Shown piece after piece: positions 13,042 through 25,228 of a DNA stretch of 64,000 nt (position 1 is its first letter; each line of letters starts with the position of its first letter). Source of the stretch: Streptomyces griseus subsp. griseus (lineage in GTDB: Bacteria > Actinomycetota > Actinomycetes > Streptomycetales > Streptomycetaceae); assembly GCF_003610995.1 (NCBI RefSeq), contig NZ_CP032543.1:1860001-1924000 (forward strand), given 5' to 3'. Below the pieces are notes generated by a model that was not told where the DNA came from, ran no database searches, and worked only from the letters and a program-made list of their open reading frames with translations. The position numbers were made by a program, and so were the translations under genes.

Positions 13042-13078
13042 CGGCGGGCCGGCCGCACCAACGGTCAGCGCCTACCGG

Positions 13079-14151
13079 CTACCGGCAGCAGTCCGGCTCC
13101 AGGCCGACCGGCAGCCGCTCCCCGGAGAAGACCGCGGTGGTCGCCTCGTCCCCCCGAGTGCGGCCACCGCCAGCAGGAGGGAGCCCGCCGTCCAGGTGGT
13201 GAGCTCCTCGGGCCAGAAGGCCTTGTTGCCCTCGAAGACGTATCCCGTCCAGTACAGCCCGCCCTCGGCGCGCAGGTGCTGGATCGACTGGAGGATCTCC
13301 AGGGCCCGGTCCGATTCCCCGGTCACCCAGAGGGCGAGGGCGAGTTCGCAGCTCTCGCCGCCGGTGACCCAGGGGTTGGGCAGCACACAGCGCACCCCGA
13401 GGCCGGGGACGACGAAGCGGTCCCAGCCCTCCTGGATACGGGCGGTGGCCTCGGCCCCGGTGACGGCGCCGCCGAGGACCGGGTAGTACCAGTCCATCGA
13501 GTAGCGGTTCTTGTCGAGGAAGCGCTCGGGGTGGTCGCGGATCGCGTGGGCCAGCGCCCCGGTCGCCAACTCCCAGTCCGGCTGCGGCTCTTCGCGCCGC
13601 TCGGCGATGGCCAGCGCACAGCGCAGCGCCTGGTGGACGGAGGACGAGCCGGTCAGCAGCGCGTCGTTCACGGCCGTCCCGTCCGCCTCCCGCTTCCAGC
13701 CGATCTGCCCGCCGGGCTGCTGGAGCCGGAGCACGAACTCGATCGCCGCGAAGACCGTGGGCCACATCCGGTCGACGAACGCGTCGTCCCCGGTGGCGAG
13801 ATAGTGGTGCCAGACACCGACGGCCACGTACGCGCAGAAGTTGGTCTCACGGCTGAGGTCGGTCGGCTGTCGCGGGTCGCCGTCGTGGTAGGCGGCGTAC
13901 CAGGAACCGTCGCCGTTCTGGTGGCGGGCCAGCCAGTCGTAGGCGCGCGCCGCCGCCTCGTGCTCGCCTGCCGCGTCCAGCGCCATCGCGGCCTCGGTGT
14001 GGTCCCACGGGTCGAGGTGGTGGCCCCGGAACCAGGGCAGCGCCCCGTCCTCGCGCTGTACGGCCAGGAGCGCGGCGACGGTCTCGGCGGCCTCGGCGGC
14101 GGTCAGGACCCCGGGAAGGACAAGGTGCTCGGTCTGTTCGGGAGTGCTCAC
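13079..14151 (-). CDS. prenyltransferase/squalene-cyclase-fold protein (one apparent frameshift)
   Basis: About 357 residues with the alpha6/alpha6 toroid fold of terpene cyclases and prenyltransferases, with repeats such as DWLARHQNGDGSWYAAYHDG and PWFRGHHLDPWDHTEAAMAL. It lacks an evident DXDD cyclase motif, so a cyclase activity is not claimed. Near the C-terminus the frame changes at six C (13150-13155); one extra base joins LLLAVAALGG to DEATTAVFSGERLPVGLEPD, the natural ending. The GTG start at 14151 overlaps the stop of the methyltransferase by 4 bp. It forms an operon with the methyltransferase and glycosyltransferase upstream. Confidence 0.8.
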
Positions 14152-14879
14152 GCCTCGGCCTTCGGAAGGTGCGGCTTGGTGGCGTACGCGACGAAGCTCT
14201 TGCCGACGACCGGGTTGAGCAGCTGCTCGGCGACCCGGGTGGCGAGCGGCTTCTTCATGATGTCCCAGACCAGGAGCTTGTGGTACGCCCGCACCGGCAG
14301 CGCCTTGTCGTTGTCGACGCCGAAGGCGCACTTCAGCCACCAGTAGGGCGAGTGCAGGGCGTGGGCGTGGTGGGTGCCGTACGGCTTGAGCCCGGCCTCG
14401 CGTATGCGGGCGAGGAGCTGGTCGGCCTTGTAGATGCGGATGTGCCCGCCCTCGACCTCGTGGTACGCGTCGGAGAGGGTCCAGCAGATCTTCTCGGGGC
14501 CGTAGCGCGGGACGGTGACGGCGATGCGGCCGCCTGGCTTGAGGACCCGGACCATCTCGGCGAGGACGCCCTTGTCGTCCGGGATGTGCTCCATGACCTC
14601 GGAGATGATCACGACGTCGAAGGAGTCGTCGGGGAACGGCAGGTTGAGGGCGTCACCCTCCATCGCGGTGGCGGTGGCACCCTCGGGGGCCTCACCGGCC
14701 TCCTTCATCGCCGCGAACCACTTGGCGACCTCGCGGATCTCCTCGGCGTTCTGGTCCAGGGCGACGACCTGCGCGCCGCGCCGGTAACACTCGAAGGCAT
14801 GCCGGCCGGCACCGCAGCCCAGGTCGAGCACTCGGTCGCCTGCGGCGAGCGGGAAGCGGGTGAAGTCGACGGTCAGCAC
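14148..14879 (-). CDS. class I SAM-dependent methyltransferase (Methyltransf_11 type)
   Basis: A 243-residue methyltransferase. Motif I is VLDLGCGAGRHAFE (residues 18-31); the acidic loop is QVVALDQN; the post-I region has GDALNLPFPDDSFDVVIISE; and VLKPGGRIAVTVPRYGPE follows. A C-terminal part with HALHSPYWWLKCAFG may contact a lipid or sugar acceptor. It sits between a GT4 glycosyltransferase and a terpene-cyclase-fold protein in a three-gene operon conserved in Streptomyces, which suggests a joint role in modifying a glycan or glycolipid. That role is inferred from neighbours. Confidence 0.85.
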   Translation of the reverse strand: MLTVDFTRFPLAAGDRVLDLGCGAGRHAFECYRRGAQVVALDQNAEEIREVAKWFAAMKEAGEAPEGATATAMEGDALNLPFPDDSFDVVIISEVMEHIPDDKGVLAEMVRVLKPGGRIAVTVPRYGPEKICWTLSDAYHEVEGGHIRIYKADQLLARIREAGLKPYGTHHAHALHSPYWWLKCAFGVDNDKALPVRAYHKLLVWDIMKKPLATRVAEQLLNPVVGKSFVAYATKPHLPKAEA

Positions 14880-14952
14880 GAGGGCCTGCCTTCGAGGTCG
14901 GAGGTACGGGTTCAGGAAAGCGGGTTACGGCCGCCGGGACACGGCATCGCCG

Positions 14953-16274
14953 TCACCTGCGGGCCGCGGCTTCGCGGACGGCGATCGCCTGACGGTACAG
15001 CTCGGCCGTTCCGGCGGCCGCCCGGGCCCAGGTGAAGTTGGCCAGTACCCGCTCCCGGCCCGCCGCGCCCAGCCGGGCGCGCAGCTCAGGGTCGGCGAGC
15101 AGCCGGGCGAGCGCCCCGGCCAGCGCGTCCGCGTCCCCCGGGGGCACGGCGAGGCAGCTCTCCCCGTCGCGGCCGGAGACCTCGGGGATCGCTCCGCCGG
15201 TGGTGGCGACGAGGGGGTGCCGGTGGCCATGGCCTCGGCGGCGGGCAGCGAGAACCCCTCGTACAGCGACGGCACACAGGAGACCTGGGCGCTGCGCACC
15301 AGGCCGACCAGCTCGGCGTCGCTGATGCCCTTGACGAACTCGACGGCGTCGGTGAGCCCGTGCCGCTCGATGGCCCGGGCGACCGGCCCGTCCTCGGCCC
15401 GCTTGCCGACGACGACGAGGTGGGCGGCGGGGTTCTCCGTACGGAGCTTGGCGAGCGCGTCGACGAGGTGGACCAGGCCCTTGAGGGGGACGTCGGCGCT
15501 GGAGGTGGTGACGATGCGGCCCGGCACCTCGGCGACCGAGGGGTCGGGCGACCAGAGGCCGGTGTCGGCGCCGATGTGGACGACGCTGATCCGGTCCGCG
15601 CGTACGCCGAGGTCCTCGACGATCTCGGCACGGGAGGAGCCGGAGACGGTGAGGACGGTGTCCAGCTTGCGGGCGACGCGCTTCTGCATCCGGGTGAAGG
15701 CGTACCAGCGGCGTACGGAGGCGCGTCGGCGGCGGCTGGTGGCGGCCGCCAGGTCGAGTCTGCGGTCCACGGTGATGGGGTGGTGGATCGTCGTCACGAG
15801 CGGGGCCCCGAGGTCGCCGAGGAGCCCGTAACCGAGGGTCTGGTTGTCGTGGACGACGTCGAACTCGCCGCGCCTGGCCAGGAGATGGCGGCGGGCGCGG
15901 AGGCTGAAGGTGAGCGGTTCGGGGAAGCCGCCGGTCCACATGGTGGCGACCTCGGCCAGGTCGACCCAGTCCCGGTACTCGCCCCACTTCGGCGTACGGA
16001 ACGGGTCGGGCTGCCGGTAGAGGTCGAGGCTGGGGAGCTCGGTGAGCGGAACGCCCTCGTCCAGCACGGGGTAGGGCTGCGCGCCGATGACCTCGACGCT
16101 GTGGCCCAGCCGCGCGAGCTCCCGCCCGAGGTGGCGCACGTAGACGCCCTGGCCACCGCAGAACGGGTTGCCCTTGTACGTGAGGAGCGCGATGCGCAGC
16201 GGCCGGTCACCGGCCCCGTCGGAGGAGCTGCTGTCGCCCGTGCGGGGACTCGTCTCTATGGCCTCAGCGGTCAC
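14953..16274 (-). CDS. GT4 family glycosyltransferase (one apparent frameshift)
   Basis: About 440 residues with a GT-B retaining glycosyltransferase fold. The N-domain has GNPFCGGQGVYVRHLGRELA; the C-domain has GLVHLVDALAKL and the EX7E-type loop SLYEGFSLPAAEAMATGTP that binds the nucleotide sugar. The frame breaks exactly after GTP, at five G on the plus strand (15213-15217); one extra base continues into LVATTGGAIPEVSGRDGESC, which is the expected family sequence. The gene heads the glycosyltransferase-methyltransferase-cyclase-fold operon. Its start lies about 53 bp from the KstR-type site, so it may share control with the divergent TetR gene. Confidence 0.85.
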
Positions 16275-17193: not shown

Positions 17194-17507
17194 TGGGAGC
17201 AGGACTGCTCCTGGGGTTGCTGATGATCGCCATGGGGACGGCCGCGCTCCGGACAGGCTGGATCGTGCCCACCGCGCGCCGCCATGTGACGAGGCCCCGG
17301 CTTCACGGATGCGGCGTCCTGCTCATGGGCGCCACCCTGGCCGTGCAGAGCCTCACGTACTTCGGGGCCCTGCCGAGCCCTTCCCCTCAGGCCCGCTCCG
17401 CCGGCGGGAACGCGCTGCTGCTCGGCGGGATGCTCCTGCTGCTCGTCAGCCAGTCGCTGCCGAGGCGGCGGGACAGCCCTGCCGGGGCCCGTCCGGATCA
17501 GGGCTGA
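17181..17507 (+). CDS. small three-helix membrane protein
   Basis: A 108-residue hydrophobic protein with helices at about residues 2-25 (VVGAGLLLGLLMIAMGTAAL), 44-62 and 76-92. It overlaps the end of the TetR gene by 13 bp, and its last 62 bp overlap the end of the convergent phosphopantetheinyl transferase gene. Codon use is good up to the overlap. Function unknown; existence moderately sure. Confidence 0.55.
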   Translation: MAWVVGAGLLLGLLMIAMGTAALRTGWIVPTARRHVTRPRLHGCGVLLMGATLAVQSLTYFGALPSPSPQARSAGGNALLLGGMLLLLVSQSLPRRRDSPAGARPDQG

Positions 17508-18138
17508 GGGGCTCCCCGCCGGCGAGCGACGCCGGGGAGGGGACCGGGCAGGCGAGGGCCACCACGGCCGCACGCCGCCGGTCCGTCCACGAGGTCAGCC
17601 GTACGTCGTCGGCCCCGGCCTTGAACCGGGCCTCGCGGCGGACCCACAGCCGCAGCAGTGCGGGGCCGGGGTCCGGCTCGGCGCAGGCGGCCTCCACGTC
17701 GGCCGCGGGCAGCAGCAGCCGCAGGACGGACAGGGGCCCCGGCCGCCGGGTCAGCGGCTCCACGTCGATGCCGACCGGCGCGGGCCCGGCCACCGCCGCC
17801 ACCAGACCGTCGGCGTGGCTGTAGCTGACGCCCAGGCCGGGGCGGCCCGGGAGGTACGGCCGCCCGTGCCCCTCCTGACCGCAGCCGGGGCAGCGCTGGG
17901 CCGGCTCCGCCTCCCCGGGCGGCAGCCCGGTGGCCCGGGAGACGGCCAGCCGCAGCAGCAGCCGGGCCGCCACCACGTCGTCGCGCCGGGCCGGCACCCG
18001 GATGCCCGCCAGCCGACGGCGTTCCCACGGGGCCAGCATGGCCTCGTCCACCTCCCGGCAGGACAGCACCTCCGCGGTGGTGGCCACCAGGACGACGGTG
18101 GCCGGGTCCTGCCCGTACGGCGCAGGCGGGCGGGTCAC
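17446..18138 (-). CDS. 4'-phosphopantetheinyl transferase (Sfp type)
   Basis: A 230-residue enzyme that moves the phosphopantetheine arm of CoA onto a carrier-protein serine. The magnesium site is VGIDVEP (residues 122-128) and the second signature is WVRREARFK (165-173), a variant of WxxKEAxxK. VSYSHADGLVAAV precedes them as in Sfp-like proteins. A CPGCG pair near residue 83 may bind zinc. It begins with GTG 10 bp after the stop of the carrier-protein gene, so it is the third gene of the ligase-carrier-transferase operon and the obvious activator of that carrier. Its 3' end overlaps a convergent small gene. Confidence 0.9.
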   Translation of the reverse strand: MTRPPAPYGQDPATVVLVATTAEVLSCREVDEAMLAPWERRRLAGIRVPARRDDVVAARLLLRLAVSRATGLPPGEAEPAQRCPGCGQEGHGRPYLPGRPGLGVSYSHADGLVAAVAGPAPVGIDVEPLTRRPGPLSVLRLLLPAADVEAACAEPDPGPALLRLWVRREARFKAGADDVRLTSWTDRRRAAVVALACPVPSPASLAGGEPLSPDPDGPRQGCPAASAATG

Positions 18139-18148
18139 CGTCGGCCGC

Positions 18149-18400
18149 TCACTCCGCCGCCGCCTCCGCGAGACCGGCGGAGCCGAGGAAGCGCTCGCCG
18201 ACGCGCGTGAGGGTGCGGAAGTCGTCGATGGTGACCTCCTGGAGGTCGATGGTGGCGCCCGATATCTCCTCCAGGAGATCGATGAACTCCAGGAAGTCCA
18301 TCGAATCGATGAGGCGGGCCTCGATGAGGTCCTCGTCGGCGGCGATGGGGCCGTCGAGTCCGGGGTTCTTCTCGTGGAGCCACGCGATGACTTGTTCCAT
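18149..18400 (-). CDS. stand-alone acyl/aminoacyl carrier protein
   Basis: An 83-residue four-helix carrier protein. The phosphopantetheine attachment site is Ser33 in LIDSMDFLEF, and the following acidic helix (IDLLEEISG) is typical of the recognition helix II. It lies between a class II synthetase-like amino acid ligase and a phosphopantetheinyl transferase, the arrangement expected for a carrier that is loaded with an amino acid rather than a fatty acid. The RBS AAGAGGAG lies upstream of ATG 18400. No modular NRPS or PKS is present, so this is the cluster's only visible carrier. Confidence 0.92.
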   Translation of the reverse strand: MEQVIAWLHEKNPGLDGPIAADEDLIEARLIDSMDFLEFIDLLEEISGATIDLQEVTIDDFRTLTRVGERFLGSAGLAEAAAE

Positions 18401-18521
18401 GGGGAGATCGCTCCTCTTGCTGTTCCGCCGGCCGGGGCGGCGGTACTGGTGACTTCGGGAATCCCGGCAGTGGCCGTGGAGGCCGGTGGTGTCGCGTCGT
18501 CGGCCGCCGGAGCGGCCGACG

Positions 18522-19378
18522 TCAGGATCCGGCGGCGCGGAGCCGCTCCAGAGCCTGCTCGGCGGAGCCGTGGGCGAGGATCATCGCGTGGACCCAGCGC
18601 TCCATCCCGAAGGCCACGCAGGAGCTGTACGCGGGCCCGTGGGAGCCCGCGCCGATGCCCAGCCGCTCGCCGAAGAAGTTGCGGTGGCGGTTCACGGAGG
18701 CGATGGCCGTGCCGTCGGGGGCGCTGTACTCGAACTTCACCGGGTCCAGGGCCATCAGGCGGGCGCGCGATCCGCCGTTGTCGTAGAACGGGTCGTCGGC
18801 GGCCGCCCGGGTCAGGTCCAGCCCCAGCCGTCCGGCCACCTCCTGGATGAACTCCCCGCCGCGCTCCTGGTGTTCGCTCGCACCGTCCTTGGTGCCCAGG
18901 TAGATCACCTCACGCATGTGGAAGCCCCACAGGCGGCGGAGTCCGTCGTAGTGGGTCTCGTTGCGGAAGCAGCGGCCGACCGCCGAGAGCCGCAGCCCGT
19001 CCTCGCCGACGTCCTGGCCCTCCAGGGAGAGCAGCAGGCCGTAACAGGTCGCGGACGGCAGCAGGTGGCCGGTCGGGTCCAGCGGGAGGCCCTGCGGCGA
19101 GCCGCCCGATGCCAGGCCGTCCAGCGTGTCGGGGCCGAACTTTCCGGCGGAGACGCCGAGATGGGGGAAGTTCCGGAAGAAGTCCAGCCGCGCCAGCCCC
19201 TCGGCGGACAGGAGCGGCGGCCCCACGACCTCGGGGCGGCGAGCCGCGCGGCCAGGCCGGTCAGCAGCTCGTCCAGGCCCCGCAGCAGTGCGGTGCGGAC
19301 CGGGTCCAGCGTGATCAGCCCGGCACCGGGGCTCTTCAGCTCGATGCCCGGCAGGGCCGTGATGCTGGATGTGTTCAT
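18522..19378 (-). CDS. amino acid:[carrier protein] ligase, class II SerRS-like (one apparent frameshift)
   Basis: About 285 residues homologous to the truncated seryl-tRNA-synthetase-like enzymes that activate glycine or alanine with ATP and load it on a carrier protein (aa:CP ligases, first described in Bradyrhizobium). It lacks the SerRS tRNA-binding coiled coil. Motif 2 is CFRNETHYDGLRRLWGFHMRE and motif 3 contains AFGMERW. Likely zinc ligands are the Cys in SATCYGL, the Glu in the RNETH loop and the Cys in YSSCVAFG. The first 48 residues (to LAARLAAP) are in another frame; the join is at four G on the plus strand (19233-19236) and needs one base to read EVVGPPLLSAEG. It is first in the operon with the carrier protein and phosphopantetheinyl transferase. 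Confidence 0.85.
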
Positions 19379-19563
19379 GAAACCGCGTCTTTCTCGGTGG
19401 AGGCCGGCGATCGGGGCACCCCACAGGGACGAAGGGATCGCGCCGCCGTGGCGCCGGCCTTCCGGGCGGGGCCGTCACCGGTCGGAGTGCAGGCGAAAGG
19501 GCGGGCCGACGGCCCGTCGCGTCGCCGACCGCACCTGTGGACAGTAGGCCTGTCGCTCTCCTG

Positions 19564-19680
19564 TTGTCTAGACCAAAAATACCGAACGCCAGGTATCGAT
19601 CCATGGCCGGGCAGACGCATAAGCGCATCCCATATCCCCATATGTGCATGGCACTTGACAGTTCGGGCGGTCTGGACCAA
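19564..19680. promoter_or_regulatory. divergent promoter region with paired GTCTRGACCAA palindromes
   Basis: The 419-bp gap between the ligase (start 19378) and the oxygenase (start 19798) contains no gene and is less GC-rich than its surroundings. Two near-identical palindromic motifs, TTGTCTAGACCAA (19564-19576) and GGTCTGGACCAA (19669-19680), lie 105 bp apart. The second sits between a perfect -35 box TTGACA (19655-19660) and the weak -10-like CAATCC at 17 bp, so a protein bound there would cover the core promoter of the plus-strand operon. No regulator is encoded in the cluster, so control in trans is inferred. Confidence 0.6.
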
Positions 19681-19797
19681 TCCTGCTGATCGACGTGGTC
19701 ACGGCTCCTCCCGCCACGGCGCTGCAACCTGTCCTGCCGACCACGGCGCCCCCTCCCCGGGGCCGCCGCACAGGCCGGCCGAGGAGAAGAACCTGCC

Positions 19798-20895
19798 ATG
19801 AACCCCATGACGACCCCCACCCCTCGCCGTCGGCCGCGCCTGCACCGCGCCGCCTCGGACATCCCGTACTTCAGCGCGGACGGTGAGTCGTACCTGGCCC
19901 AGACGACCCTGCGGGAGCTGAAGAAGTCCCGGCCGCTGAGAGTCCTCTCCGAGGAGGACTTCGCCCACTGGCAGACCTACGGCTACGTCATCGTCCGGGA
20001 AGCCGTCCCCGCCGCGGTCGCCGGCCGGCTGCTCGACTTCACCTGGGACTTCCAGGGCCTGGACCCCGGGCGTCCGGAGAGCTGGTACGAGGAGCGGCCG
20101 CTGCGCTCCGAGCTGGACCAGCAGCTGCTCATCTACGGCTTCGTCGAGGCGTACCACCACCAACTGCTGTGGGACAACCGGCAGTCCCAGCGGGTGTACG
20201 ACGCCTTCGTCGACGTCTGGGACTGCGAGGAGCTGTGGGTCACCCTGGACCGGCTCAACCTCAACCCGCCCAACCGGGGCATCCGGGACCGGGCGCTGAT
20301 CGACCCCACCGACCGGGGTTTCGACATCGAGTTGCACTGGGACATCGACACCACGATCGGCGTGCCGCCGCAGCGGGTGCAGGGCATCATCGCGCTCAAC
20401 GACACCCGGCCGGAGACCGGCGGCTTCCAGTGCTGCCCGGAGCTGTTCCGGCAGTTCGAGACCTGGAAGGTGGGCCAGCCCGAGGACCGCGACCCGCTGC
20501 GTCCGGCCATCGACCGGGACGAACTCCCCGTCGTACGGCCGGATCTGCGCCCCGGTGACCTGCTGATCTGGAACGGCCTGCTGGCCCACGGCGTGGCGCG
20601 CAACCTCTCCGAGAGCGGCGTACGGGCCGTGCAGTACCTGTCGATGATGCCCGCGCTGGAGGAGCACGAGCGGCTGCGGAAGTCGCGGGTCGAGTCCTGG
20701 AGGCACCTGCGCACCCCGCGCTGGAACCGCACCCTGGTCGGCGATCCGGTGCTGCACGAGTCCAAGCGCTACCCCACGGCCGAGCTGAACGCACTGGGCA
20801 GCCGGCTGCTGGGGCTCGCCTCGTGGCAGGACCCGGTCGAGGACACGGCGCCCGCCACGGGGACCGAGGAGCCTTCGTGCGCCGTATCTGCCTGA
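19798..20895 (+). CDS. phytanoyl-CoA dioxygenase (PhyH) family Fe(II)/2-oxoglutarate oxygenase
   Basis: A 365-residue non-haem iron oxygenase. The jelly-roll core shows ELHWDIDTTIG, giving the HxD iron ligands, and LIWNGLLAHGVARN, giving the distal His, with Arg in GVRAVQYLS as the likely 2-oxoglutarate anchor. An intact HxD triad points to hydroxylation or desaturation rather than SyrB2-type halogenation, where Asp is replaced. It starts at ATG 19798 after GAGGAGAAG. As first gene of the plus-strand operon facing a carrier-loading operon, it probably oxidises a carrier-bound aminoacyl group. That substrate is an inference. Confidence 0.88.
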   Translation: MNPMTTPTPRRRPRLHRAASDIPYFSADGESYLAQTTLRELKKSRPLRVLSEEDFAHWQTYGYVIVREAVPAAVAGRLLDFTWDFQGLDPGRPESWYEERPLRSELDQQLLIYGFVEAYHHQLLWDNRQSQRVYDAFVDVWDCEELWVTLDRLNLNPPNRGIRDRALIDPTDRGFDIELHWDIDTTIGVPPQRVQGIIALNDTRPETGGFQCCPELFRQFETWKVGQPEDRDPLRPAIDRDELPVVRPDLRPGDLLIWNGLLAHGVARNLSESGVRAVQYLSMMPALEEHERLRKSRVESWRHLRTPRWNRTLVGDPVLHESKRYPTAELNALGSRLLGLASWQDPVEDTAPATGTEEPSCAVSA

Positions 20896-22187
20896 CCCTG
20901 CCCACCCACCGGGAGTGCGCCGCCACCATCGCGGCGGTCGCCGAGGAAGCGGCCTACGGGGCGGCGGAGTTCGGCGTCGAGGTGCGGTTCCTCGTGCTGG
21001 ACTCCTCTCCCCCGCCGGTGCTCGCCGCCCACCGGGCGGCGGTGGCCGCGCTGCCCCCGGCGCCCGGGGTCGCCGTCCACCACCTGGACGAGGACGGTCA
21101 GCGCGGCATCCTGCGCGAGGCGATCGGCCGGTCGGGGACCGCCGACCCGGACCGGCTGCTGGAGCTGCTGCTGCCCTCCCGGGTCTCCTACGGCTCCTGC
21201 ACCGACCGGGCGTTCCTCATCGCCCAGGCGCTCGGCTGCACCTCGGTGCACCGCCGGGACTCCGACAGCCGCTACCAGACCTTCGACGGCCGCCCCGTCT
21301 TCCCCCTCCACCAGGAACTCGCCTTCCTGGGCCGGGCCGCCGACGAGGTGAAGGAGCCGGCCACCCGCCACCGGATCGCGCCCGGGACCGGTGACCGTCC
21401 GGTGGCGGTCGTCGGCGGCTCCTTCGTGGGGGAGATGTCGGTGGACATCGCGGAGATCCACGGCCGCGACCCGGACGTCTACCGCGAGCTGGTCGGCCTC
21501 TCGATCCCCGACGACTGTCCCGCGATCTGGCGCGGCCATCTGGTCGAGGAGTCCTTCCGGGGTGCCGGGGACACCGCCTTCGACGGCGACCGCACCCTCC
21601 TCGCACCCGTCAGCCCGACGCGGGTGGACATGTGCAACATCGCGCTGGACCACGAGGTCTACCGCCGGGTCCCGCTGCCCCCCGCCACGGACACCATCGG
21701 CACCGACTACTTCCTGCTCGGCCTGGCCCACGACGCCCGGCTGCCCGGCGTCGAGCACAACCGGCACATCGTCAACTTCCATACGGAGGAACGGCGTACG
21801 GACGCGGGGTTCCTCGCCTACCAGCTGCGCTTCGCCCGGTTCCTGCTGGCGAAGGCCTACCTCAACGACGTGCACGCCCGGACCAAGGCCGCCGGGGACG
21901 CCCTGCTGGACGGGGAGCACCGGCTGCGGACCGCCCTGGTCGCGCAGTTCGTCCGGGACAGCCTGGCGCGGGACCCGGAGGAGGACACCCGGCGCCTCGA
22001 CGGCGTGGAGCGTGCCTACCGGCGCCTGGGCGGCCGGTACGCGGAGGTCGCCGACGCCCTGGCCGCCCGCCGCGAGAGCCTGCCGGCCGAGGTACGCGAC
22101 GGCATGGCCGACTTCGCCTTCCTGCTGGACCACTGGCCGGCGCTGACCCGCGCCTGCGCCGACGCGGGCCTGTCCGTGAACCGATGA
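20877..22187 (+). CDS. DUF6271-type protein with GT-A-like features
   Basis: A 436-residue protein I recognise only as a DUF6271-like family seen beside carrier-protein genes. The N-terminus (RRICLTLPTHREC) and the strand RFLVLDSS resemble the nucleotide-binding start of GT-A glycosyltransferases, and HRRDSDSRYQ (Asp128-Asp130) resembles a DxD metal motif. The C-terminal third is helical and rich in Arg and Ala. GTG 20877 has GAGGAG 6 bp upstream and lies inside the oxygenase gene (19-bp overlap), so the two are coupled. A sugar or related transfer is possible but unproven. Confidence 0.72.
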   Translation: MRRICLTLPTHRECAATIAAVAEEAAYGAAEFGVEVRFLVLDSSPPPVLAAHRAAVAALPPAPGVAVHHLDEDGQRGILREAIGRSGTADPDRLLELLLPSRVSYGSCTDRAFLIAQALGCTSVHRRDSDSRYQTFDGRPVFPLHQELAFLGRAADEVKEPATRHRIAPGTGDRPVAVVGGSFVGEMSVDIAEIHGRDPDVYRELVGLSIPDDCPAIWRGHLVEESFRGAGDTAFDGDRTLLAPVSPTRVDMCNIALDHEVYRRVPLPPATDTIGTDYFLLGLAHDARLPGVEHNRHIVNFHTEERRTDAGFLAYQLRFARFLLAKAYLNDVHARTKAAGDALLDGEHRLRTALVAQFVRDSLARDPEEDTRRLDGVERAYRRLGGRYAEVADALAARRESLPAEVRDGMADFAFLLDHWPALTRACADAGLSVNR

Positions 22188-22209
22188 ACTCCCCCGCCCC
22201 GAGGACACC

Positions 22210-23949
22210 GTGCACCCGATCCCCCCGCGTACCCTCACCGTCGCCTACACGGGCGGCCAGGAGCGCCGCGGCCCGATCACCATGGGCCAGGCCAACATGA
22301 TCCGCTGCATCCTGCGGGACGACCCCACCCACATCAACATCCACGACGTGTGGCCGGTCCCCGAGGGCACCGCCCTGGAGGCCGTGACCGACGCCCTGCG
22401 CGCCCTGGCCGTACGGCACGAGGGGCTGCGCACCACCTTCCCGCACCCGCCGGGGGCCGCGCCGGTCGAGCAGGCCGTGGCGGCGGAGGGCACGTTCACG
22501 GTGACCGTCCTCGACCACACCGAACTCCCCGGAGACCCTGCGGAGTACGCCGAGTCGGTGGCGCGGGCGGCACGGGCCGGGCGCTACGCGCTGGACCGGG
22601 AGTTCCCGCTGCGGATCACGCTGCTCACCGTGGCCGGTGCGCCGGCCTACGCGGCGCTGGCGTGCAGCCACGCGGTGGCGGACGGCAGCGCGTTGGCCAT
22701 CCTGCGGGAGGAGTTCGGCGAACTGCTCGCGGGCAAGGAGCTGCCCGAACTCGCCTCCCTGCCCCCGGTCGACCTGGCCGCGGTGGAGGCCTCCCCGGCC
22801 GGACTGCGGAAGCCGGAGGCGTCCCTGCGGTACTGGGAGCGGATCATCCGCAGCGGTCCGCAGGAGATGTTCGCCGAGCCGCGCGGCAGGCGCCCGGGAA
22901 TTGACGAGGAGGCCCGGCAGCTGACGCTGCGCTCCCGCCGGGGCGGCCGGGCGCTCGCGGAAGCGGCCCGCCGCACCGGGCACCCCGAGGCAACCGTACT
23001 GATGGCCGCCTGGTGCGCCCTGGTGGCCCACCGGGCGGGCCAGGACAGCTGTGTCACCGCCGTCCCCACCGCCAACCGGTTCCACCCCCGGGTCGCCCGT
23101 TCGGTGACCACCACCGCCCAGGACGCGCTGCTCCACCTGGACACCGGGGTACCGGCCTTCGACGCCCTGGTAGCCCGGACCTGGGGCGCGGTGCTCAACG
23201 CCTACCGGCACAGCCAGTTCGACTCCGTACGCCTGTGGGAGATGATCGGCCGGGTCACCGCCGAGCGCGGCAGCCACTTCGGCCGGGACGTCGTCTTCAA
23301 CGACGTGAGCGCACTGCCCGCCCCGCTCCTGGGCACCGACACGCAGGACCACGACGCCGTCGAGCACGAGCTGACATGGGGCCCGCCCCAGGCGCTGCCG
23401 ACCCGGCTGCTCGCCTTCACCTACCGGACCGCCCCCGAGCTCCACATCTCCCTCTGGGCCGCCCCCTCCCTCTTCACCCCCGAGGAGGCGGAGGGCTTCC
23501 TCTCCGGGCTGGTCCTGTTGCTGGAGGCGGCGGCCGACGGGGACGTGCCGATGGCGGCGCTGACAGAGGTGACGGGGGTCCGCCCCGCCGAACGCGGCCC
23601 CGAATGGCTGCGGCTGGACGGCTGCTGGGTCTCGCCCGAGGCCGTGCGGGACGCCCTGGGCCAGGCGGTGGGCGGGCTGCCGGTGCACGTGGCCGAGGAG
23701 CCGGAACCGGAGGACGCGGACGGCGCGGGACCGGGCCTCACGGCCTACATCGCCCGCGGCGACGCCCCGTTGACGCCCGCCGATGCCCACCGGGCGCTGA
23801 CGGCCCTGATCCCCGCCGCCGGGTCGGGCGTCCTCGCGCCGGGCCGCTATGTGCTCGTCACGGACCCGCCGGCCGACCCGGACCGGAGCGGTGCCTGGCG
23901 TCGGACGAAGACCATCGAAGAAGGGACCGGCCGCGGCCGGCAGGTGTGA
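22210..23949 (+). CDS. stand-alone NRPS-like condensation domain with unusual C-terminal extension
   Basis: A 579-residue protein. Residues about 20-450 form a condensation-domain fold with the catalytic His in CSHAVADGS (His154, Asp158, Gly159; HHxxxDG family), AVRHEGLRTTFP as the C2-like motif, and DVVFNDVS near the end. It should join a carrier-bound acyl or aminoacyl group to an amine or alcohol. Residues about 455-579 (GCWVSPEAVRDALGQ, LTAYIARGDAPLT, APGRYVLVTDPPADP) look like the small C-terminal subdomain of an adenylating enzyme without its large core. Fourteen bases after the previous stop a GTG begins it, with GAGGA upstream. Confidence 0.82.
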   Translation: MHPIPPRTLTVAYTGGQERRGPITMGQANMIRCILRDDPTHINIHDVWPVPEGTALEAVTDALRALAVRHEGLRTTFPHPPGAAPVEQAVAAEGTFTVTVLDHTELPGDPAEYAESVARAARAGRYALDREFPLRITLLTVAGAPAYAALACSHAVADGSALAILREEFGELLAGKELPELASLPPVDLAAVEASPAGLRKPEASLRYWERIIRSGPQEMFAEPRGRRPGIDEEARQLTLRSRRGGRALAEAARRTGHPEATVLMAAWCALVAHRAGQDSCVTAVPTANRFHPRVARSVTTTAQDALLHLDTGVPAFDALVARTWGAVLNAYRHSQFDSVRLWEMIGRVTAERGSHFGRDVVFNDVSALPAPLLGTDTQDHDAVEHELTWGPPQALPTRLLAFTYRTAPELHISLWAAPSLFTPEEAEGFLSGLVLLLEAAADGDVPMAALTEVTGVRPAERGPEWLRLDGCWVSPEAVRDALGQAVGGLPVHVAEEPEPEDADGAGPGLTAYIARGDAPLTPADAHRALTALIPAAGSGVLAPGRYVLVTDPPADPDRSGAWRRTKTIEEGTGRGRQV

Positions 23950-23950
23950 C

Positions 23951-25228
23951 ATGAGCGTTGACGACACGACCCTCCAGCAGAAGCCGGACCCGCTGCCCAG
24001 TCCTTGGCGGTCGGGCCGGTTCCGGCTGTTCTTCACCGCCCGCAGCGCCTCGCTCCTGGCCGACGGCATGCTCATGGTCTCCCTCACCACAGCCGTCCTG
24101 GGAGCGGGCCACGGAGCGAGCGGCGTCGGGTACGCGCTGGCCGCGTGGATGACCCCGATCGTGCTGCTGGTGCTCTTCGGCGGGGTGCTGGCCGACCGCT
24201 TCACCCCGCAGGTGATGATGATCTGCGCCGACGTGGCGCGGATGGCGGCCATGCTCACGATGGCCGTGCTGCTCTTCTCCTCGGACAGCGTGCCCCTGTG
24301 GCAGATCATGGGGCTGATGGCGCTGAGCGGGGCCGCCACGGCGATGTTCCAGCCCGGGATGGCGAGCATGGTCCCCCGGGTGGCGAAGGACATCCAGAAG
24401 GCCAACGCGCTGCTGCGCATATCCGAGGCCCTGAGCACCCTGCTGGGCCCCGGCCTCGCGGGTCTGCTCGTCGCGTACTGGCAGGTCTCGGGGTCGTACC
24501 TGGTCATCGCGGCGGCCTACGCCCTCAGCGCGGCGGTGCTGCTGCCCCTGCGGAAGCTGCACACGGAGCGGGACGAGGGCGACGCGCCGATGTGGCGCAG
24601 GCTCGCGACCGGGTGGCAGGAGTTCCGGTCCCGTCAGTGGCTGTGGGGCGTCATCGCGGTCTGGTCCGTCTACGGCCTGTTCGTGTTCGGCCCCGCGCTT
24701 CCGCTGGGTGCGGCGCTGATGATCGAGCAGCACGGGGCGAACGGCTACGGCTGGATCGCCTCCGCCGACGGCGCGGGCACGATCATCGGCGGCCTGATCG
24801 GGATGCGGGTCCGCCCGCGGCGCCCCCTCGTCGCGGGCGCCCTGGCCATGCTCTGCTTCGCGCTCAACCCCTTGGCCCCGGCGCTGGAGTGGTCCTTCGA
24901 GGCCACGGCGATCGCCCATGTCATCGCGGGGTACGGCTTCGCCTTCTGGGGCGTCATGTGGGCGACGAGCGTCCAGTCGCACATCCCGCTGACGGTCCTG
25001 AGCCGCGTCTCCGCCTATGACGTCGCCGGTTCCATCATGGTCATCCCGCTCGGTCGCGCGCTGGCCGGCCCGGCGGCCGACATGTTCGGCGCGAACGAGG
25101 TGCTGATCTTCTCCTCGGTCATGTCGTGCGTCCTGCTGGCCGTCATGCTCAGCGTCCCGGCCATCCGCGCGCTGCGGCGGGCACCGGATACCCTCCTTCG
25201 CAAGGCGGAGGGCGAGCCGGCGCTCTGA
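23951..25228 (+). CDS. MFS exporter (MFS_3/enterobactin-exporter-like)
   Basis: A 425-residue transporter with 12 predicted helices; FGGVLADRF after helix 2 is the family motif and IQKANALLRISEALSTLLGP is typical of DHA3-type exporters such as siderophore and macrolide pumps. It starts 1 base after the stop of the condensation protein and ends the biosynthetic operon, so it most likely exports the cluster product and may give self-resistance. No substrate can be read from the sequence. Confidence 0.88.
   Translation: MSVDDTTLQQKPDPLPSPWRSGRFRLFFTARSASLLADGMLMVSLTTAVLGAGHGASGVGYALAAWMTPIVLLVLFGGVLADRFTPQVMMICADVARMAAMLTMAVLLFSSDSVPLWQIMGLMALSGAATAMFQPGMASMVPRVAKDIQKANALLRISEALSTLLGPGLAGLLVAYWQVSGSYLVIAAAYALSAAVLLPLRKLHTERDEGDAPMWRRLATGWQEFRSRQWLWGVIAVWSVYGLFVFGPALPLGAALMIEQHGANGYGWIASADGAGTIIGGLIGMRVRPRRPLVAGALAMLCFALNPLAPALEWSFEATAIAHVIAGYGFAFWGVMWATSVQSHIPLTVLSRVSAYDVAGSIMVIPLGRALAGPAADMFGANEVLIFSSVMSCVLLAVMLSVPAIRALRRAPDTLLRKAEGEPAL

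Follow-up and report, generated by a model that had tools for sequence, protein, structure and literature searches.

A seven-gene Streptomyces cluster that may join a carrier-loaded amino acid to a separately made acceptor

What might a bacterium build with an amino acid:[carrier protein] ligase (aa:CP ligase), a small carrier protein (CP) and a free-standing condensation (C) protein, in the absence of a modular nonribosomal peptide synthetase (NRPS)? This question is raised by a 64,000-nucleotide stretch of Streptomyces griseus subsp. griseus DNA (NZ_CP032543.1, positions 1,860,001 to 1,924,000; hereafter the window), which belongs to a genome assembled as one contig of 7,238,194 bases. Open reading frames (ORFs) and Pfam matches define seven genes in two divergent groups at 17446–25228: ligase, carrier and 4'-phosphopantetheinyl transferase (PPTase) on the minus strand, and PhyH-family oxygenase, DUF6271 protein, C protein and major facilitator superfamily (MFS) protein on the plus strand. 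We propose, with moderate confidence, that this compact non-modular biosynthetic cluster comprises two modules and an exporter. Briefly, in module A PhyH would hydroxylate a free small substrate, and DUF6271, with its predicted GT-A fold, would probably transfer or remodel a nucleotide-activated sugar on the product; in module B the PPTase, carrier and SerRS-like ligase would generate an aminoacyl-S-carrier, most likely glycyl; the C protein would couple the aminoacyl group, as an amide, to an amine on the module A product; and export of the final compound would fall to the MFS protein. Substrates, reaction order and product are what we infer here from the genes, their motifs, their neighbours and their trees.

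A conserved seven-gene unit

The order of the seven genes is conserved beyond chance. A query with a piece of the ligase N-terminus matched 39 of the 392 Streptomyces genomes searched, the one that holds the window among them. Of the other 38, we set aside G446 and G499 and took loci from the remaining 36. The full set, with order and orientation unchanged, was present in 32 of these 36 loci; the exceptions were L089, L090, L091 and L098, and we rejected L090 as a ligase locus, its match being a weak fragment only. Among 67 named ligase loci, 54 had the full order and orientation, and several of the 13 without the full set (L114, L115, L123, L149, L151, L154 and L160–L166) are truncated by contig ends. 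Some genomes were drawn twice (L089 is L154 and L098 is L123, with further overlaps among the fetched sets). The set also occurs on the S. clavuligerus plasmid pF1D18A (L002), and the best named matches of the window's DUF6271 and ligase are from Streptomyces relatives. Because the adjoining TetR and glycosyltransferase genes are each common to only 9 loci, we take the seven genes to be the unit, a compact set retained by roughly 8–10% of the sampled Streptomyces genomes. At E 1e-60, DUF6271 was found in 119 of the 392 genomes, including 36 of the 39 with the ligase (all except G316, G408 and G492).

The initial annotation had described two divergent operons that load a carrier without a modular NRPS, and had suggested genome co-occurrence and gene order as a check. 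The layout is as it claimed, the order recurs at the frequencies given above, and a Pfam scan detected no adenylation (AMP-binding) domain in the seven proteins, on which ground a modular NRPS was rejected. All seven genes that it listed are present, with the ligase split over two frames in the window's assembly (see below).

PhyH and DUF6271 in clusters that lack a ligase and carrier

DUF6271 was present in 101 of 200 Streptomycetaceae genomes, from which we hand-picked 20 loci, mostly best matches. The 19 PhyH-DUF6271 loci considered here leave out L080 and L081 (no PhyH) and L082 (seven-gene type) and include L003 and L004, both taken from plasmid records. In none of the 19 did the ~20–25 kb covered give a ligase or carrier match. 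For 18 of them, a fraction that does not describe a random sample, the next genes encode an ODC/LysA-like decarboxylase, a GNAT protein and another MFS protein, so that a five-gene cluster (PhyH-DUF6271-decarboxylase-GNAT-MFS) is found in L003 and L063–L079; L004 carries the pair alone. In the open-access literature searched (most subscription papers lay outside its scope), we met no account of this five-gene cluster, no mention of DUF6271 and, in line with the initial annotation, no characterised compound for the seven-gene set. In L080 (9339–10655) and L081 (10005–11306), a DUF6271 gene 44–45% identical adjoins a GNAT gene that shares 53–54% identity with the GNAT of the five-gene cluster.

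In 13 of the 18 five-gene loci PhyH is 68–75% identical to the window's (78% in L098, a hybrid locus described below), which suggests one substrate in both settings. Since PhyH and DUF6271 recur without ligase or carrier, they more likely make an acceptor than modify a carrier-bound amino acid. The initial annotation had instead equated gene order with reaction order: loading of the amino acid first, then its oxidation by PhyH on the carrier, and last its condensation by the C protein. Such chemistry has a precedent in enteromycin carboxamide, for which oxidation of carrier-bound glycine by a diiron oxygenase, together with O-methylation, has been reported (He and Ryan, 2021, as cited in PMC9967187 and PMC12154687). 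Relatives of the ligase adjoin diiron oxygenases of this kind, and PhyH is divergent to the ligase in all 54 full loci. However, a PhyH so similar to the window's occurs at loci that gave no ligase or carrier match, and we consider on-carrier oxidation unlikely.

The PhyH residues H180-x-D182, H264 and R276 are invariant in 25 sequences. A halogenase assignment was rejected, as Asp182 is present. Of 20 aligned stretches of the five-gene decarboxylase, 17 carry GPTCDSDD and 1 carries GPTCDGDD, with a Cys-Asp pair that we take to be typical of ornithine-type enzymes; this pair is a lead that the module A substrate may be basic.

For DUF6271, which the initial annotation had listed without a role, a confident structure model now groups the protein with GT-A enzymes. 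The predicted fold is a GT-A core with a helical C-terminal domain, as in GT75 NDP-pyranose mutases. The protein carries D128-S-D130 and H294 (D130 and H294 invariant in 31 sequences), a DXD and His that match those of MtdL by order and spacing only. Rather than a transferase, it could be a nucleotide-sugar mutase of the metal-dependent MtdL kind, or a protein that uses the GT-A fold for other chemistry. We think this improbable: the 31 sequences share no invariant or near-invariant Arg in the interval from D130 to H294, which in MtdL contains Arg159 and Arg257, and the seven genes include no separate glycosyltransferase to use the furanose. The missing Arg also weighs against our own proposal for DUF6271, as does the finding that MtdL is not among the best 50 Foldseek rows for DUF6271. 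Against PDB sequences, a single-sequence search gave no match and a profile search chance matches only. With this model DUF6271 acquires a predicted fold, and the preferred role, sugar transfer or remodelling on the PhyH product, offers a testable chemistry.

The carrier module, its load and its origin

An intact ligase homologue (that of L002) matches 3mey and 4h2w with E 3e-23, which relates its class II synthetase core to Bll0957, and the ligase motifs are kept among 37 relatives (PSATCYG in 36, MREVxYLG in 36 and SxCVAFGxER in 35). Its Cys/Glu/Cys positions, which we take to be the zinc site, align to 4h2w. The carrier motif L[IV]DS[ML]xF, which holds the serine site, is found in 37 of 37 relatives, and a carrier gene lies near the ligase in at least 66 of the 67 loci (a CP is listed in all 67 rows). 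His154 and Asp158 of the C protein are kept in all 33 aligned sequences, the window's included; the last Gly of the motif varies. The last ~130 residues of the C protein (window 23545–23946) lie past the C domain and contain conserved positions without a good Pfam match. A remnant adenylation subdomain, suspected there by eye, was dropped after no such Pfam match appeared in six sequences.

Ligases of this type load Gly or Ala according to a 2017 review (PMC5370406). A 2022 review (PMC9437257) calls the role of such loading unknown, and its table assigns the Ser, Gly and Ala ligases to SerRS, GlyRS and AlaRS, respectively. Relatives of the ligase and carrier adjoin AurF-type genes in L089, L091, L098 and L160–L164 (AurF domain confirmed in L089 and L161), NMO-type genes in L089, L091, L098 and L165, and O-methyltransferase-type genes in L091, L098 and L165. 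Because of this AurF neighbourhood and the enteromycin-type oxidation of carrier-bound glycine, glycine is our best guess for the load, and by this analogy the carrier is most likely glycylated. No diiron N-oxygenase is encoded among the seven genes, and the matches in the window's genome are only 28% and 21% identical and lie at distant places.

The trees, built with 13 (ligase) and 14 (PhyH) seven-gene-type relatives of those fetched and rooted at midpoint, suggest how the modules came together. All 15 seven-gene rows fall together in the PhyH tree (99/94). Next outward is L114 (100/99), which has PhyH, DUF6271, an ABC transporter, ligase, carrier, PPTase and a different C protein, followed by L098 (98/93), which combines PhyH, DUF6271, decarboxylase and GNAT genes with AurF-type, ligase, NMO-type, O-methyltransferase-type, carrier and PPTase genes. 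The five-gene rows branch outside these; two of them (L077 and L078), and L004 as well, sit weakly on the side of the seven-gene rows. The ligase tree groups L098 and L114 with the seven-gene rows (99/99), with unresolved placement, and puts the seven AurF rows outside. In the simplest scenario, a five-gene cluster fused with a glycine-nitronate cassette, and the AurF, NMO, O-methyltransferase, decarboxylase and GNAT genes were lost afterwards. This scenario depends on midpoint rooting and on the two intermediate loci, which it would make steps in the assembly of one pathway out of two. The hybrid locus L098 is from Streptomyces sp. TRM64462, and its contig ends within the PPTase gene.

A more specific version of the proposal, which we offer tentatively and regard as rather doubtful, holds that DUF6271 is a new GT-A family sugar-modifying a PhyH-hydroxylated, probably basic, free amino acid, which the five-gene route decarboxylates and acetylates and the seven-gene route, arisen by the merger and the loss of N-oxidation genes, caps with glycine. 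If true, both pathways would yield undescribed glycosylated amino-acid products. For the cluster in the window, the predicted compound is probably small, built from a simple amino acid and an oxidised, perhaps sugar-modified block, and exported.

Several observations weigh against the two-module account as a whole. The 19 carrier-less loci are a non-random sample, and the PhyH structure model is poor (pLDDT 37.3). The hybrid L098 carries GNAT together with ligase and carrier; acetyl and glycyl caps are therefore not simple alternatives. The window's C protein is just 29% identical to that of L114, and the table of PMC9437257 gives Ser rather than Gly or Ala for SerRS-type ligases. Finally, the assembly interrupts the reading frame of the window's ligase: one frame runs from 19378 to ~19240 and another from there to 18522, whereas in relatives the ligase is a single ORF, mostly of 285 codons (L096, an exception, is broken in several genes). 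The interrupted ORF scores below cut-off for both tRNA-synt_2b (22.3/29.3) and the NCBIfam aa-[ACP] ligase PRK07080 (99.2/357).

Were the break real, the cluster would no longer function in this strain, and the genome holds no other ligase copy at E 0.001. We rate such a loss of function the least probable of the alternatives. Relative to five relatives, dN/dS is 0.13–0.24 after the frame change (0–0.62 in the 45 codons before it), and two neighbouring genes (window 13072–14340 and 14925–16274) shift frame near 13150 and 15215 relative to close kin, with >90% identity on both sides (116 close-relative proteins matching the window). With the ligase, this makes three frame breaks within ~6 kb of the window; for L050 alone, the start of a TetR-like gene splits too. 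Because the two nearby genes break likewise, the ligase break is probably an assembly error.

Gene features and comparison with known systems

Five of the seven proteins pass the Pfam cut-off, and the carrier and ligase fall short (Table 1). DUF6271 starts with GTG inside the 3' end of PhyH, and the MFS gene with ATG one base past the C gene. Across the seven genes, dN/dS between the window and five relatives is 0.12–0.55. No sigma-70-like promoter was found, the divergent intergenic region included (chance expectation 0.1); two terminators were found versus 1.2 expected, and TTA codons were absent from the seven stretches counted (for the ligase, the second piece only). Split transketolase genes are found downstream of the S. 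clavuligerus seven-gene cluster (L002:17013–18656) and, on a plasmid of Apilactobacillus kunkeei, immediately after a distant DUF6271 gene (L099:12961–14689).

Table 1. Features of the seven-gene cluster in window coordinates.
Feature	Position	Strand	Evidence
4'-Phosphopantetheinyl transferase, 230 aa	17446..18138	-	PF01648 27.1 bits, cut-off 25
Small stand-alone carrier protein, 83 aa, Ser33 in LIDSMDF	18149..18400	-	PP-binding 15.7 bits, below cut-off 20.8
SerRS-like amino acid:[carrier protein] ligase	18522..19378	-	Two pieces, frame change near 19240; 88-89% identity to intact relative
Divergent intergenic region	19379..19797		Between starts of ligase and PhyH
PhyH-family Fe(II)/2-oxoglutarate oxygenase, 365 aa	19798..20895	+	PF05721 37.2 bits, cut-off 22
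DUF6271 protein, 436 aa	20877..22187	+	DUF6271 661.8 bits, cut-off 25; predicted GT-A fold, GT75-like
Free-standing condensation-domain protein, 579 aa	22210..23949	+	PF00668 72.7 bits, cut-off 30.6; SHxxxD site
MFS exporter (predicted)	23951..25228	+	PF07690 86.8 bits, cut-off 33.4

The closest known systems each cover part of the cluster. Like the Bradyrhizobium-type aa:CP ligases (3mey, 4h2w), the ligase of this cluster type has a class II core of ~285 residues, the Cys/Glu/Cys positions and a carrier gene nearby, but the homology is distant and the ligase is accompanied by a PPTase, C protein, PhyH, DUF6271 and exporter. The role of aa:CP-ligase loading becomes testable with this cluster, which offers a specific carrier and C protein and a candidate pathway to the acceptor. 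Glycine-nitronate or enteromycin-type cassettes share the probable carrier-loaded glycine chemistry and ligase/carrier kin beside AurF-type oxygenases, whereas the seven genes include no AurF-, NMO- or O-methyltransferase-type gene. DUF6271 resembles GT75 NDP-pyranose mutases (MtdL, UAM) in predicted fold, DXD motif and H-x-R, but lacks the conserved Arg of the nucleophile interval (MtdL Arg159), judged by sequence order, and has no sequence match to PDB chains. The five-gene cluster of Streptomycetaceae has the same adjacent genes in the same order, with DUF6271 ~51–57% identical and PhyH as similar as noted above, but a decarboxylase and GNAT replace the ligase, carrier, PPTase and C protein. 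What is new in the seven-gene cluster is a partner module joined to an already known carrier-based, non-modular aminoacyl chemistry.
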